Positions 15,750-20,516 of a DNA stretch of 22,102 bases are shown piece by piece; within the stretch, counting starts at the first letter, position 1; each line of letters opens with the position of its first letter. Below the pieces are notes generated by a model. That model was not told the origin of the DNA, did no database searches, and saw only the letters and a list, made by a program, of their open reading frames with translations. Made by a program: the position numbers and the translations under genes. Where the stretch lies: positions 1-22,102 of IMG/VR virus record IMGVR_UViG_3300027834_000030. One strand, given 5' to 3'. Source of the DNA: a virus.

Positions 15750-15962
15750 TCAGGCTGTACACTTGTTCTCATTGACCGAGTGGCGACCAATTGAGCGGGT
15801 CTCGTACGCGCCTAAAAGAGTTCCTTTCTCATCAAGCCGAACGAATATCTTTCTTGAGCTGCGGAGCATCTGTGATAAACCGCTCTGAGTGACCCCTATC
15901 TGCTGGGCCACCACGTCTTGAGTTCGGTCTTTCACGTACTCACGAATAGGGATTTCACGCAT
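15750..15962 (-). CDS. cro: Cro-like repressor
   Basis: A 70-aa protein with a short HTH (TQDVVAQQIGVTQSGLSQML, about residues 14-33) followed by RKIFVRLDEKGTLLGAYE, closely matching the lambda Cro layout in which RKIFL precedes a dimerising beta strand. It is the first gene of the leftward early operon and is divergent from the repressor. Cro would bind the same operators and shut off repressor synthesis to favour lysis. AGGAAG lies 5 nt before the ATG; the PR start site is about 26 nt upstream. Confidence 0.85.
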   Translation of the reverse strand: MREIPIREYVKDRTQDVVAQQIGVTQSGLSQMLRSSRKIFVRLDEKGTLLGAYETRSIGRHSVNENKCTA

Positions 15963-15994
15963 GGTAGCTTCCTGTGGTTCTTTCCTTGCTTATG

Positions 15995-16023
15995 ATAGTA
16001 GCACTGCTAATTTATATCAGCAA
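15995..16023 (-). promoter_or_regulatory. Early leftward promoter PR with operator
   Basis: On the minus strand: -35 TTGCTG (16023-16018), 17-bp spacer, -10 TACTAT (16000-15995), start near 15988. The palindrome TAGCACTGCTA (15999-16009) fills the downstream part of the spacer and overlaps the -10 by two bases, so repressor binding would block polymerase. It drives cro and the early operon. Confidence 0.7.
15999..16009. promoter_or_regulatory. Operator site at PR
   Basis: Perfect 11-bp palindrome TAGCACTGCTA. Its core AGCACTGCT recurs in two sites at the PL region (17901-17911, 17926-17936) and, with one change, at PRM (16056-16066). The 14-nt string AGCACTGCTAATTT is identical at 16000-16013 and 17927-17940. 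Confidence 0.75.
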
Positions 16024-16043
16024 CAATTCGCGCCTCCTGCTGT

Positions 16044-16071
16044 TTGCGCTGGCATTAGCGATGCTTATAAA
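16044..16071 (+). promoter_or_regulatory. Repressor promoter PRM; near-leaderless start
   Basis: TTGCGC (16044-16049), 16-bp spacer, TATAAA (16066-16071). The ATG of the repressor is at 16081, only nine bases past the -10, so the mRNA would begin two to four bases before the ATG, or at it, as with lambda cI from PRM. An operator variant TAGCGATGCTT (16056-16066) lies across the spacer/-10 and would give autorepression. Confidence 0.65.
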
Positions 16072-16080
16072 TTAAGAGGT

Positions 16081-16824
16081 ATGAAAAAACCTGTCAGAAC
16101 ACCTCTTACTCCTGAGCAAGATCAGGAGGCGAAGCGCTTAAAGGCGATTTTTAACGCACGAAAAGATGCGGCGCGTTCCCGTGGCGGGAAGCTAAACCAA
16201 GATGACGTTGCAGCCGCTTGCGGATGGGGCGGTCAGAGCGCTGTGAGCCAGTACATGAACGGGCGTATAGCACTAAACCTGGATGCTTTATTAAAGCTTT
16301 CTAGGGCTTTGGATTTTGAGCCAAGCGAAGTCAGTCCGCGCTTAACTGGCGAGAGGGTCGTCGGCTCAAACGTAACGCCAATAAAGACGGAATCTAATGT
16401 TGCACCTGCCCCAAAATTGGAGGGGTACGTTCCAGTGATCTCTTGGGTTCAGGCCGGGGCATGGACAGAAGTTTGCAATGTCGATTTCTTGAGCGAGGAG
16501 GTAGTACCCAGGCCACCAGCATGCTCAGAATCAACCTTCGCCTTGCGTGTCAAAGGCCAGTCAATGGCCCCAAGGTACGAGCCGGGACTAATTATCTACG
16601 TCGATCCAGAGGTAGTGCCTTTCGATGGCGATGACGTCGTCGCAATGCTTACAGATGATAACGAGGCGACTTTCAAGCAGTACGTTGAAGAGCCGGGCGG
16701 CAAGAAAATGCTCAAGGCTCGCAATCCTGGTTGGCCTGAGCCGTGGGTACCCATCAATGGAAACTGCCAGATTATCGGTGTTGTTATCGCAACCATGTGG
16801 CTACGAACGCCCAGGGCGGGTTAG
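16081..16824 (+). CDS. cI: CI-type prophage repressor with LexA/S24 autocleavage domain
   Basis: A 247-aa repressor keeping the phage lysogenic. Residues about 38-80 are the HTH (LNQDDVAAACGWGGQSAVSQ, then YMNGRIALNLDALLKLSRAL). From about 113 the S24 peptidase domain starts: cleavage site Ala125-Gly126 in WVQAGAW, catalytic Ser161 in KGQSMAP, and Lys199 in TFKQYV. SOS-stimulated self-cleavage and induction are therefore expected. The frame is open from 15961, but ATG 16081 is chosen because the PRM -10 lies just upstream and the extra residues cover the operators. AGAGGT is only one base from the ATG, consistent with leaderless initiation. Confidence 0.93.
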   Translation: MKKPVRTPLTPEQDQEAKRLKAIFNARKDAARSRGGKLNQDDVAAACGWGGQSAVSQYMNGRIALNLDALLKLSRALDFEPSEVSPRLTGERVVGSNVTPIKTESNVAPAPKLEGYVPVISWVQAGAWTEVCNVDFLSEEVVPRPPACSESTFALRVKGQSMAPRYEPGLIIYVDPEVVPFDGDDVVAMLTDDNEATFKQYVEEPGGKKMLKARNPGWPEPWVPINGNCQIIGVVIATMWLRTPRAG

Positions 16825-17139: not shown

Positions 17140-17536
17140 TATAGTGGAGAGTGCGCTGAACGATTTAGCTGAAGCTTTGGGCGATACGCCTATTATCTAT
17201 ATGAGAAAGCGCGCCACTATAAGAAAACGCCTTAAAGACGCCGCTGTAGACGCTAGTGACTTTTCTTTTGAATCCGACCATAATGACAAAAGGTGGCCAA
17301 TCGATAAGGAGGGCGATATGAGTGATCGAATTATCAATCTTGAATCTCAAGTTAGCCAACTTCGCGTCGATATGGCCGAGGTTAAAACCAAAGTTACGCA
17401 CATAGAATCTAACATGCTCACCAAGGGCCAAGCCGCAACATCTGCGCTTATCGCAGTATTGTCTATATTGGCTGGCGGGTGGTGGGTTGTTCAGCAATAC
17501 CTTGCCCCTATACTGCAAGCCACAGGGACAAGTTAG
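17123..17536 (+). CDS. Repressor-operon protein 2: coiled coil with C-terminal membrane helix; likely internal second start
   Basis: A 137-aa reading from ATG 17123 (GGAGGG 8 nt upstream) starting MEHKINIVESALNDLAEALG. The first 65 residues are a basic soluble region; then MSDRIINLESQVSQLRVDMA begins a coiled coil, followed by a membrane helix (AATSALIAVLSILAGGWWVV) near the C-terminus. A second start, ATG 17318, has a very strong GGAGG at 5 nt and would give a 72-aa tail-anchored form resembling XhlA-type proteins. The gene overlaps its upstream neighbour by 17 nt. It could be an exclusion or membrane sensor protein in the rexB-like slot; function unknown. Confidence 0.6.
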   Translation: MEHKINIVESALNDLAEALGDTPIIYMRKRATIRKRLKDAAVDASDFSFESDHNDKRWPIDKEGDMSDRIINLESQVSQLRVDMAEVKTKVTHIESNMLTKGQAATSALIAVLSILAGGWWVVQQYLAPILQATGTS

Positions 17537-17771: not shown

Positions 17772-17794
17772 CCCGCCCGCGAGGCGGGTTTTTT
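17772..17794 (+). terminator. Terminator of the repressor operon
   Basis: CCCGCC/GGCGGG stem (17772-17777, 17783-17788) with a five-base loop followed by TTTTTT (17789-17794). It closes the repressor operon and insulates it from the PL-like operon that starts about 150 bp further on. Confidence 0.88.
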
Positions 17795-17900
17795 GTGCCT
17801 TAAAAACAGATAGCGCCACCTAAAAACACTATTTCCAATATTTTTTAACACCACTGATTATTGTTTTTCAGTCACTTAGCTTATTTTTATAAATTATTAG

Positions 17901-17940
17901 CAGCACTGCTGTTGCAATTAATAAGAAGCACTGCTAATTT
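17901..17940 (+). promoter_or_regulatory. PL-like promoter with two operators
   Basis: -35 TTGCAA (17912-17917), 17-bp spacer, -10 TAATTT (17935-17940), start near 17947. Operator 1 CAGCACTGCTG (17901-17911, perfect palindrome) abuts the -35; operator 2 AAGCACTGCTA (17926-17936) overlaps the -10 by two bases, the same geometry as at PR. Centre-to-centre distance is 25 bp, about 2.4 helical turns, as in lambda operators. It drives the rightward early operon. Confidence 0.75.
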
Positions 17941-17980
17941 TATTCACATCGAACAACGCAACAGGCAAGCAGGGCGACTC

Positions 17981-18352
17981 ATGGAAATCATGCACAACGG
18001 CTGGATAGCAGAGGTAAGCGAGGAGCGGGGCAGCGGCCTTACGCCATCCGAAGCGCTAAGCCTTCTCCATCTAGCTAGCGGCATGACCCAAAAGGAGATT
18101 GCCAAGGCAATCAACCTAAGCCCTCGCACGGTGCGCGGCTCTTTAGATCGAGCCTACCACCGCCTAGGCGTCACCAGAGGCACTGCCGCCGTAGCCAAGG
18201 CCCAGGCCAAAGGATGGATTCGATACGCAGGGAAGCTAGGCATGTGCTTAGCACTAGCAACAACGCTACTCACAGGCACAGACGATGCGATGCGCCGCAG
18301 TGGCAAGACGCGCATCGCCCGAAAGGCGGAACAGGTTCAGATGATCGCCTAG
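17981..18352 (+). CDS. LuxR-type HTH protein with C-terminal hydrophobic segment
   Basis: A 123-aa protein, first gene of the PL-like operon. Residues about 20-78 are a LuxR/GerE HTH (LTPSEALSLLHLASGMTQKE, then INLSPRTVRGSLDRAYHRLG). A hydrophobic stretch at 84-99 (LGMCLALATTLLTG) may be a membrane helix, followed by a basic tail (MRRSGKTRIARKAE). Similar HTH-plus-hydrophobic-tail proteins occur in other phages. An in-frame extension to 17861 is open but would cover the operators; ATG 17981 has AGGG at 6 nt. It occupies the place of lambda N; a regulator of early transcription is likely, the mechanism unknown. Confidence 0.75.
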   Translation: MEIMHNGWIAEVSEERGSGLTPSEALSLLHLASGMTQKEIAKAINLSPRTVRGSLDRAYHRLGVTRGTAAVAKAQAKGWIRYAGKLGMCLALATTLLTGTDDAMRRSGKTRIARKAEQVQMIA

Positions 18353-18649
18353 CAGCAGCACGACCCGCACCACCGGGCAATGTGGAGTTCTTTAACAATA
18401 TGCCGTAGTTCGCGCACAGCCATCCCGTAAGCGGAGGCGAGAAAGCACACCCACAAGATGCGCTCGTCGCGGGGCGTTTCCCTAAAAGGATTGGGAGGCG
18501 TGGGCACTCTGGATTGCGACCCCAGGCTGCCGATAGCGACATCAGTTGTGCGTAAGGAACGAGAGTTCGATGGTTGCTCCTTGTTTAATGCAGGGAGCAT
18601 CCGAAAGGCCATTCAGAGAGTGTCTTTTCGGTTACATGGAGATTTGAGC
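18353..18649. other. Gap in plus-strand genes containing a boxA-like site
   Basis: Almost 300 bases between rightward genes with no convincing plus-strand gene. It holds GTTCTTTAACAAT at 18387-18399 and, on the minus strand, an 87-codon open frame (18349-18612) with acceptable codon use but no ribosome site. A weak hairpin CCCG/CGGG (18364-18367, 18374-18377) lies before the boxA-like site. Confidence 0.5.
18387..18399 (+). promoter_or_regulatory. boxA-like antitermination element (nut/rrn type)
   Basis: GTTCTTTAACAAT differs by one base from the E. coli rRNA boxA core GCTCTTTAACAAT. On a rightward transcript it could bind NusB-NusE and help polymerase pass downstream terminators, including those at 20001 and inside the gene at 21088. 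Only the match and orientation are seen; activity is inferred. Confidence 0.5.
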
Positions 18650-18881: not shown

Positions 18882-19280
18882 ATGACAACGCAATCAAGAA
18901 TGCTGATAGCAGTAGATGAGTCGGTGGCCGTTTCAGCCACCAAAAACGCGATAGCAGATCGCATTGATGAGTTGGTCAGCACGGCGGAGGCGGTCAGCAA
19001 GGTTGAGATGAAGCGCGCTGGCTACGCTGATGCACAGATATTGATTGACGCCGCCGTACTGGTTGATCTTGCCGAGAAGATACGCAGCGAGCCAGTTATT
19101 GTCCCTAAAGCCTCGCATGGCGCACCTCCTATCGGCAAAGCTGGAAGCATTTCGCATCCAGAAGCAATGAAAAAGGATGATGTCAGTAGTGTTCTAGAAG
19201 CGCTATCCGGCCTTATAGACGAGATAGCGCTGCTCAGAAAGCAAAATCATGAGCTGCTCGGCAGGCGAAAAGTTGTCTAG
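18882..19280 (+). CDS. Hypothetical phage protein, 132 aa
   Basis: Starts MTTQSRMLIAVDESVAVSAT at ATG 18882 with AAGGAG at 6 nt, 10 nt after the previous gene. Helical N-terminal half (AIADRIDELVSTAEAVSKVE), a Pro/Gly linker, and a C-terminal coiled coil (LSGLIDEIALLRKQNHELLG) ending in basic residues. No family recognised. Its TAG stop is interlocked with the stop of the convergent minus-strand gene: the four bases CTAG at 19277-19280 serve both. Confidence 0.65.
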   Translation: MTTQSRMLIAVDESVAVSATKNAIADRIDELVSTAEAVSKVEMKRAGYADAQILIDAAVLVDLAEKIRSEPVIVPKASHGAPPIGKAGSISHPEAMKKDDVSSVLEALSGLIDEIALLRKQNHELLGRRKVV

Positions 19281-19555
19281 ATGGGCTGTAGATACCAGCT
19301 TATATCATCCGCCTTGGTCACCAGGACAAAGCTTCCGGGCACGATTGAGTCTGACAGATTCTTAACCTCATTCCGCACTGATAGGGCGCTTAGCGGTTTC
19401 TCAGCGTAATACTCAGCATCTGGAAGTTGGAATACTTGACCATTTACATCCTTGAGCTGTCGCGAATATCGCTTAGCTTCCATTAGCTCATGTAGTCGCT
19501 CGTAGTCTTCTGAATCTGCGGAATGAAGAACAACCCTGATGATGAATTTATCCAT
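19277..19555 (-). CDS. DUF2622-like small protein, inverted in the rightward operon
   Basis: A 92-aa protein starting MDKFIIRVVLHSADSEDYER, followed by LHELMEAKRYSRQL and, later, AEYYAEKPLSALSVRNEV and GSFVLVTKADDISW. The pattern of a beta strand VRVVLHxA, then DYxxLHxxMExxG/RY, a central LPxAEY and a C-terminal VLVT resembles DUF2622, a ferredoxin-like small family seen in enterobacterial prophages. AGAGGT is 5 nt before ATG 19555. Being opposite to its neighbours and next to the structured segment, it may be an independently controlled unit (moron-like). Confidence 0.6.
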   Translation of the reverse strand: MDKFIIRVVLHSADSEDYERLHELMEAKRYSRQLKDVNGQVFQLPDAEYYAEKPLSALSVRNEVKNLSDSIVPGSFVLVTKADDISWYLQPI

Positions 19556-19570
19556 TTAAAACCTCTTTAA

Positions 19571-20023
19571 CGGTGCTGGTGTGTGGAAACTTCAGCATAC
19601 CGTGAAGCGCGGGGCCTGCGACAGTGCCACTTAAAGCCTGCTGGTTCGGCTGAGAATAGAGCCAGCATCGGTGATGCCGTTTGCCCGATAGTCTCCTGGG
19701 AAGCGCCAAGCGGCATCTCCGATGCACCTAAACCCAGCTAATTTAACAGGCGGTTAAAGAAGTAAGGCGGTGCATCAGCGGCGCTCGCAGCGCTTATCTG
19801 CGAGCCATCGGGATAGCAGTCGGCGGGGAGCGGAGCTGGCTGGTGAGGCTGATTGAGCGGCTTAGCGGCCAGGAGAGAAACGCCTCACGCCTCACTTGAT
19901 CAATGGGGCGAATAAACCCAGTCAGCACTCACAGTTCGAGTCTGTGCGGCTGCTATCCCGATGCTTGCCATGGCATCGACTCCTTGCAATGGATATGCAC
20001 AGCCCTCTACGGAGGGCTTTTTT
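19571..20023 (+). ncRNA. Candidate structured non-coding RNA with tRNA T-arm mimic
   Basis: About 450 bases without a gene, packed with perfect inverted repeats: GGTGCTG/CAGC-ACC near 19571-19602; a 17-bp hairpin GCATCGG plus ATGCCGTTTG (19665-19725, with a 2x2 internal loop and one wobble); TTTAAC/GTTAAA (19742-19758); GCTCGCAG/CTGCGAGC (19783-19805); a long-range 17-bp stem CATCGGGATAGCAGTCG (19806-19822) with 19947-19963 (one G-U pair); GTGAGGC with GCCTCAC (19843-19849, 19882-19888, copied again at 19889-19895). CACAG-TTCGAGT-CTGTG (19930-19946) is an exact tRNA T-arm and abuts the long stem. It ends in a terminator. No promoter is evident at the 5' end. I do not recognise a known RNA family. 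Confidence 0.6.
20001..20023 (+). terminator. Strong terminator ending the structured segment
   Basis: AGCCCTC/GAGGGCT perfect 7-bp stem (20001-20007, 20012-20018) with loop TACG, and a run of six T ending at 20023. It defines the likely 3' end of the candidate RNA and separates it from the next rightward genes. Confidence 0.9.
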
Positions 20024-20162
20024 GAACCATCAAGTAATCCTTGTCAGTTGAAATGAGCGTGGATCGCGTTCATTTCCGCGCCGCTTCATCCCATTAACTC
20101 AAAGCCGTTGGCACTGCGACGAGTTGCCGAGGCGGCGCGCCTAATTCTATAAGAGGTGATTT
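20024..20162. other. Upstream region of the right-hand small-gene operon
   Basis: Non-coding. Holds an inverted repeat GAAATGA/TCATTTC (20050-20056, 20070-20076) that could be an operator, and a promoter-like pair TTGCCG (20124-20129) and TATAAG (20148-20153). The latter would start transcription too close to the ATG at 20163 to keep the ribosome site, so it is doubtful. The real promoter may lie further up or the operon may be read through from PL. Confidence 0.35.
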
Positions 20163-20516
20163 ATGAAGAATCTAGATCAACCAGCAAATGCTTTAACAGG
20201 CGATGCCTACTCCGATATTAACGGCAGCAACTTAACTCCGGGCCGAGCTGAAGGCGGCATGGGCTTTACAAAACGCGAGCGCGCCTGCATTGACCTGCGC
20301 ATACCCGAGAGCGGCGACCCCGAGCTAAACGCACTGATTGAGAAGGCGCGGCGGCAGGAGATCGCTATGCGAGCCATGGAGGCAACCATGGTTAATGCGG
20401 GGCGCAATGGCTACAAACCCATGGACGATAAAATCTTTCTGGATGCTGGCCGGGCTTCCGACTACATGCTGGATGAACTCGACAGGCTAGACAGGCTGGA
20501 GCGCACCGATGGCTAA
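20163..20516 (+). CDS. Hypothetical phage protein, 117 aa
   Basis: Starts MKNLDQPANALTGDAYSDIN, with AAGAGGT at 5 nt. After a flexible N-terminus the core reads GFTKRERACIDLRIPESGDP and ELNALIEKARRQEIAMRAME, a helical pattern conserved in small phage proteins of unknown function (FTKRE..A..L..P.SGDPELD..I..ARR). Ends in an acidic/basic helix (LDRLDRLERTDG). Probable first gene of the right-hand cluster. Confidence 0.75.
   Translation: MKNLDQPANALTGDAYSDINGSNLTPGRAEGGMGFTKRERACIDLRIPESGDPELNALIEKARRQEIAMRAMEATMVNAGRNGYKPMDDKIFLDAGRASDYMLDELDRLDRLERTDG

Follow-up and report, generated by a model that had tools for sequence, protein, structure and literature searches.

Tandem pseudoknot-arm modules downstream of a phage repressor gene as candidate put-like RNA elements

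The region at positions 19571–20023 of the window, a 22.1-kb virus fragment (22,102 nt), is a tandem of modules, each consisting of an H-type pseudoknot and a directly adjoining long-stemmed arm (CATCGG...CCGATG). The window contains two such modules (Table 1), and the family comprises 26 records or genomes, namely 22 virus records (window included) and four further genomes, all of one genus (L156, L163, L164, and L166; loci carry the prefix L). No Rfam 15 family matches the module in the window or its homologues, and literature searches, mostly without full text, returned no description of a pseudoknot-arm RNA family, which is apparently undescribed. As set out below, the modules are tentatively explained, at somewhat under even confidence, as put-like elements that work within the nascent RNA and influence transcription elongation.

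The minus strand of the fragment carries head-packaging and replication genes. The plus strand carries a repressor-led operon, which opens with an S24-type repressor gene (15961–16824) followed by a LuxR-type gene (17861–18352). The structured region belongs to this operon and lies between a small minus-strand gene (19277–19555, phrog_8894), which breaks up the operon immediately upstream, and the gene at 20163; mechanically called ORFs of 51–59 aa overlap it. The product of the minus-strand gene shows sub-cutoff similarity to endoribonuclease GhoS (E 0.0075). Between 15600 and 22102, the plus strand has a single consensus promoter match, at 17256, and the operon contains three strong plus-strand terminators (17772, 20002, and 21135). 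The first of them (17772–17796, CCCGCC...GGCGGGTTTTTTGT) is located upstream of the LuxR-type gene and recurs in near-identical form in several related loci; in several loci, the LuxR-type gene is preceded by a terminator. Across the family, the modules lie downstream of the repressor and usually of a boxA-like element.

Table 1. Features of the structured region and its surroundings in the window
Feature	Position	Strand	Details
boxA-like element TTCTTTAACA	18388–18397	+	36 nt past the LuxR-type gene
Hairpin H0, CGGTgCTG / CAGcAtACCG, loop GTGTGTGGAAACTT	19571–19602	+	L055/L056/L163 have AGCTcCTG / CAGgAtAGCT, i.e., paired changes (by eye)
Pseudoknot, module A	19635–19666	+	S1 19635–19638/19648–19651; S2 19640–19647/19659–19666; loop GAGAATA 19652–19658; alignment A3
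Arm, module A	19667–19723	+	12/13 pairs, inner 31 nt; inverted repeat I1
Linker helix 19721–19728/19769–19776	19721–19776	+	Inverted repeat I5; alternative partner of the module A arm end
Pseudoknot, module D	19777–19805	+	S1 19777–19780/19791–19794; S2 19783–19790/19798–19805; alignment A1
Arm, module D, partly tRNA-like	19806–19963	+	14/14 outer pairs, inner 130 nt
T-arm motif CACAG-TTCGAGT-CTGTG	19930–19946	+	Abuts the long stem, inside the module D arm
GCATC copy	19973–19977	+	May pair with GATGC 19960–19964, competing with the arm base
Intrinsic terminator	20001–20025	+	38 nt beyond the module D arm
Conserved leader hairpin ahead of gene 20163	20076–20160	+	blastn with L027, L028, L055, and L056; seen in L163

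Modules of the pseudoknot type share one layout: strand S1a of 3–5 nt, a loop of 1–3 nt, S2a of 6–8 nt, S1b directly adjoining, a loop of 1–8 nt (often GAGAATA or TAT/AAT), and S2b. These loop lengths fit the established geometry of H-type pseudoknots. The arm starts right after S2b, opens with CATCGG or a similar sequence and closes with CCGATG, and the complete module spans roughly 90–190 nt.

Folding with covariation statistics, a check proposed in an earlier sequence-only reading of the region, revealed compensatory changes in both pseudoknot helices. In alignment A1 (ten D-type pseudoknots), 99.2% of the cells are standard pairs, and both partners differ in 6 of 12 pairs, including three of the four pseudoknot pairs of S1, whereas control structures slid by 1–3 columns gave zero or one such change. 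Alignment A3 (five A-type pseudoknots, without L030-A, which MAFFT misaligned, and L058-2, which is gapped in A2) is 95% paired, with both-sided changes in 7 of 12 pairs against at most three in slid versions. Part of the loci were found by a descriptor that scores complementarity, so the pairing there is partly circular. In L058–L061, which were aligned via their boxA flank, a G-C to A-T change in S1 occurs together with an A-T to G-C change in S2. Across 27 pseudoknots, from which the near-duplicates L027-D, L060, L138, L141, and L154-1 were omitted, 21 have a complete S1 and the other six are one S1 pair short, with 13 strand combinations; when S1 strands were exchanged between modules, full pairing was obtained in only 63 of 624 cases. 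The claim that a structured RNA at 19571–20023 is conserved among phages is thus backed by compensatory changes in homologues.

The stretch 19571–20025 is also more stable than its dinucleotide shuffles (z = −4.8, with 0 of 100 equally stable). The opposite strand gives z = −3.6, a good fold that is expected because of the inverted repeats. At least six perfect inverted repeats had been described; the region has six of 8 nt or more, three of them perfect and three of 89–94%. The long stem (19806–19822/19947–19963; 17 nt, 94% complementary) abuts the T-stem, and an intrinsic terminator with a T tail was located at 20001–20018, both as originally described. The proposal of one RNA of about 450 nt, on the other hand, gives way to a repeated module: a single 450-nt fold is ruled out because the homologues vary in module number and order. 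The linker differs as well; in L028, a different helix occupies its place and is likewise paired, AATGCAGTG/CACTGCATT (by eye).

The homologues were reached by several routes: L027 and L028 via flanking genes; L030 via a hairpin pattern; L055, L056, and L058–L061 via the LuxR-type gene; L137, L138, L139, L141, and L144 via a boxA-plus-flank pattern; and L146, L147, L149–L152, and L154 via a hairpin pattern, of which L149 and L151 have only a module-0 type. At a low threshold, the descriptor scan produced 79 hits, some at overlapping loci, compared with 24 when the sequence was reversed, and hits were retained only with conserved S2/CATCGG and a phage regulatory context, judged by eye. From a second hit set, 11 of 14 were retained, and its reversed control gave no hits. 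LuxR-type loci of other genomes gave three hits beyond the window's own two, none of which was accepted as a module. Genome searches with the boxA pattern (0 of 390) and with L060 DNA (0 of 82) found no match; L056 DNA matched in 1 of 390 and 5 of 250 genomes, and one of these, G431, gave no module. Matches to phrog_3282 were obtained in 347 of 390 genomes and also in 9 of 14 control genomes; they are therefore a generic LuxR-type signal. Among named phage and plasmid records, none is similar to the window region, and named phages show no similarity to L028, L030, L059, or L163.

The arms are hypervariable. For the arm catalogue, 40 of 41 arms were located (L147-1 was left out; L028-D, whose arm is a tRNA, stands outside it). 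The outer stems keep 9–18 pairs despite differing sequences, and the 40 arms fall into 32 sequence families by blastn. A single arm family is found on two pseudoknot types, D-type in L059 and A-type in L163. Arms and ORFs also vary independently in their combinations; L055 and L151, for example, share an arm and L150 and L151 share an ORF. Such shuffling would be expected if the repeats were DNA-level linkers at which gene cassettes recombine, the RNA structure being a by-product. This explanation is highly improbable because of the compensatory changes in S1, a pseudoknot helix that double-stranded DNA cannot form.

The T-arm motif noted in the sequence-only reading is indeed present in the module D arm. 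Perfect T-arms occur in 2 of 36 distinct arms, each lying 2–3 nt short of where the interior ends, whereas shuffled arms average 0.006 and none of 500 sets reaches two; the T-arm of module D is real and beyond chance. It is probably tRNA-derived. Its 17-mer occurs in 25 IMG/VR stretches, mostly within called tRNA genes. The predicted free (minimum-energy) fold of the region lacks the T-stem (pair probability ~0.01), and forcing it costs 3.5 kcal/mol. The arm of L056-1 is predicted to be cloverleaf-like, with D-like and T arms and a T-stem probability of 0.98–0.99. As in tRNA, the T-arm sits on an acceptor-like stem in module D of the window and in L056-1, but this stem measures 14–17 bp, and the window lacks a CCA. 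ARAGORN and Rfam RF00005 detect no tRNA cloverleaf in the window, and no tRNA was called in L056. In L028, by contrast with these, a tRNA recognized by both ARAGORN and Rfam directly follows the D pseudoknot, in the arm position. The suggestion of a tRNA-like arm is therefore supported in part, by L056-1 and L028. The tRNA likeness is optional, since L027, the closest homologue, carries an unrelated arm that lacks a T-arm.

Several further tRNA-related sequences were noticed. The tRNA-Met(CAT) of L028 (3918–3994, minus strand) has an odd T-arm, with the loop AGCATAA instead of TTCRANY. Around CACAGTTCGAGTCTGTG, two phages (L013 and L023) contain almost the same tRNA-like element, a nested hairpin whose T-arm is canonical and which ARAGORN leaves uncalled. 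At L154:3959–4041, a T-arm, TCAGGTTCGAATCCTGA, resembling a tRNA 3' half lies just upstream of a module-0 hairpin.

The module-0 hairpins (GCCCGTTCACYGAGCGGGC) stand ahead of a leader and RBS of differing small ORFs. A pseudoknot for this type was considered and not retained: its S1 (CAGTG/CACTG) is possible in L028, shorter in L055 and L056, and missing upstream in L146–L154. The immediate succession of module-0 type, conserved leader, and RBS before differing ORFs would suit an RNA processing or translation element, in which each small gene is preceded by a pseudoknot and arm that insulate the mRNA or cause its cleavage, e.g., at RNase P or RNase III sites, and tRNA-like arms could serve as RNase P substrates. 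Yet most arms have no T-arm and many modules precede a terminator rather than an ORF, and we regard this explanation as quite improbable.

Boxes resembling boxA occur upstream of modules in L027, L054–L056, L058–L061, L156, L163, and L164. In L137–L144, which were found by the boxA pattern, boxA provides no independent support, and in L030 the motif is absent as scanned. By itself, the boxA of the window is not significant (one seen, 0.24 expected). Most cores near modules read CTCTTTA(A)CA, and those of the window and L027 read TTCTTTAACA. As in rrn-type antitermination, a boxA core as in the E. coli K-12 rrnB leader (CTCTTTAACA) stands ahead of an untranslated structured RNA; we know of no rrn counterpart of the pseudoknot-arm modules.

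Terminators are concentrated on the module strand: 238,911 bases of 23 loci contain 50 intrinsic terminators on this strand and seven on the other. Thirteen of 30 modules end 15–42 nt before an intrinsic terminator, against 0.24 expected and a maximum of four in 20,000 draws. In L163 and L164, the module is followed by a stem of this kind whose T tail is weaker (by eye). A GCATC copy, able to pair with the arm end GATGC, follows 14 of 15 terminator-proximal modules, and L055-2 has the paired change GATGT/ACATC (both by eye). These copies would fit a conditional attenuator, in which a terminator-adjacent GATGC/GCATC hairpin forms at the expense of the last arm's base (CATC/GATG), and the choice between stop and read-through depends on how the arm folds or on a bound factor. 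The absence of GCATC from the module-0 type, which precedes ORFs (by eye), is in line with this. Nevertheless, the competing hairpin, at about 5 bp, is short next to arms of 9–18 bp, and the arm interiors offer no common core to bind one ligand; an attenuator is considered unlikely.

The near-fixed distance between the last module and the terminator would also fit a discrete trans-acting ncRNA spanning approximately 19571–20024. Its 3' end would be formed by the terminator, and its tRNA-like arm would serve as a decoy that occupies tRNA-binding proteins or nucleases. PMC4807359 describes boxA as able to shield long untranslated RNA from Rho, which would allow such a transcript. The tRNA-like arms of the window and L056, the tRNA of L028, and the minus-strand gene that interrupts the operon point in the same direction. 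However, other modules directly precede RBS-ORF units without a terminator, module number differs among phages, the arms are mostly not tRNA-like, and no consensus promoter match lies just upstream. A discrete ncRNA is thus somewhat unlikely.

The modules do not correspond to large phage RNAs of known type either. The covariance search with Rfam proposed in the sequence-only reading matched no family other than tRNA at the gathering score: the window, L055, L056, L058, and L030 gave no match, and L027–L029 gave only tRNA. Group I/II introns, ROOL, GOLLD, HEARO, and other Rfam families were set aside on this basis, and with them the suggested kinship to GOLLD or ROOL; low-threshold hits to SpF51, osmY, and mir-458 look like chance. 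A CRISPR-repeat mimic, type III antitoxin repeats, an HDV-like ribozyme, and a TPP riboswitch were considered and not adopted. GOLLD and ROOL are likewise structured phage-borne RNAs, and GOLLD at times carries tRNAs within a variable part, but their folds measure 660–800+ nt (PMC12286853), against about 90–190 nt for the modules.

The put-like explanation rests on putRNA topology, early-operon position, boxA, and terminators. The compensatory changes in the pseudoknots also count in its favour, as do the three strong plus-strand terminators and the single consensus promoter match of the window's operon. In the cryo-EM structure of HK022 putRNA (PMC9378689), A3–G7 pair with C15–U19, there is a 2-nt loop, stem I runs from C10, the minor groove takes up a third strand (U21–C25), and stem II runs from G36. 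The modules share this order of S1a, short loop, S2a, S1b, loop, S2b, and then stem II, and they share the phage early operon and, presumably, action in cis. A general search for the pseudoknot-plus-stem topology recovers putL in HK022, and putR was recognized by eye in the printed sequence.

Differences are nonetheless present. Whereas put is about 70 nt long with an S2 of 5 bp and a short stem II, the modules have an S2 of 6–8 bp and a long arm with a variable interior. The put RNA has L1 = AA and an A9–G35 pair, and the modules have neither; L1 in the 27 pseudoknots is T, GC, GT, CC, CT, TA, TT, or CTC, never AA. The modules are tandem and lie beside boxA and terminators, whereas HK022 put requires no boxA. 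In HK022, put lies downstream of both early promoters; on the minus (lytic) strand of the window, whose record is a fragment, the descriptor scan gave no accepted module. The absence of put-specific nucleotides speaks against the put-like explanation, as does the terminator close behind the last module, which a constitutive antiterminator would render useless. H-type pseudoknots, moreover, occur in translational regulators too. We file the family under phage cis-acting elongation-control RNAs and do not claim membership of the put family, because a defining put feature was not found.

If the modules are put-like, the two copies in the window would act in cis on RNA polymerase as it transcribes the repressor-proximal operon of this temperate phage. 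Each would bind the elongation complex and suppress termination, and the polymerase would then pass terminators and long untranslated stretches, assisted by the upstream boxA, as with HK022 putRNA, which suppresses termination without protein factors and is blocked by mutations in the zinc domain of the RNAP beta' subunit. The arm would be the counterpart of put stem II, with an inner part free to vary and sometimes tRNA-derived. Among the roles first proposed for the region, that of a regulator of adjacent genes comes closest to this put-like element. To our knowledge, very few systems of RNA-only antitermination exist (HK022 put and Bacillus EAR). With a family that unites one topology with freely swapped arms in at least 22 virus records and four further genomes, put-like control would become general and open to direct testing. 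The arms that bear tRNAs would also offer natural evidence of how an elongating polymerase tolerates a large RNA cargo. More speculatively, and with considerable doubt, the modules may represent a new modular class of phage RNA, in which a constant pseudoknot docks on the transcription (or other) machinery, while hypervariable arms that are exchanged horizontally and in some cases consist of a captured tRNA lend each phage its own specificity, e.g., against host factors or tRNA-targeting defences.

The arm of L060 has one short match in Citrobacter phage phiNP (L084, OR565852). There, a repressor-type gene is followed by about 1 kb of DNA (positions 1863–2854) that contains boxA and no genes. 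This stretch holds tRNA-like pieces and the block common to the L060 arm, and near its end it shows sub-threshold matches to RprA and DicF.
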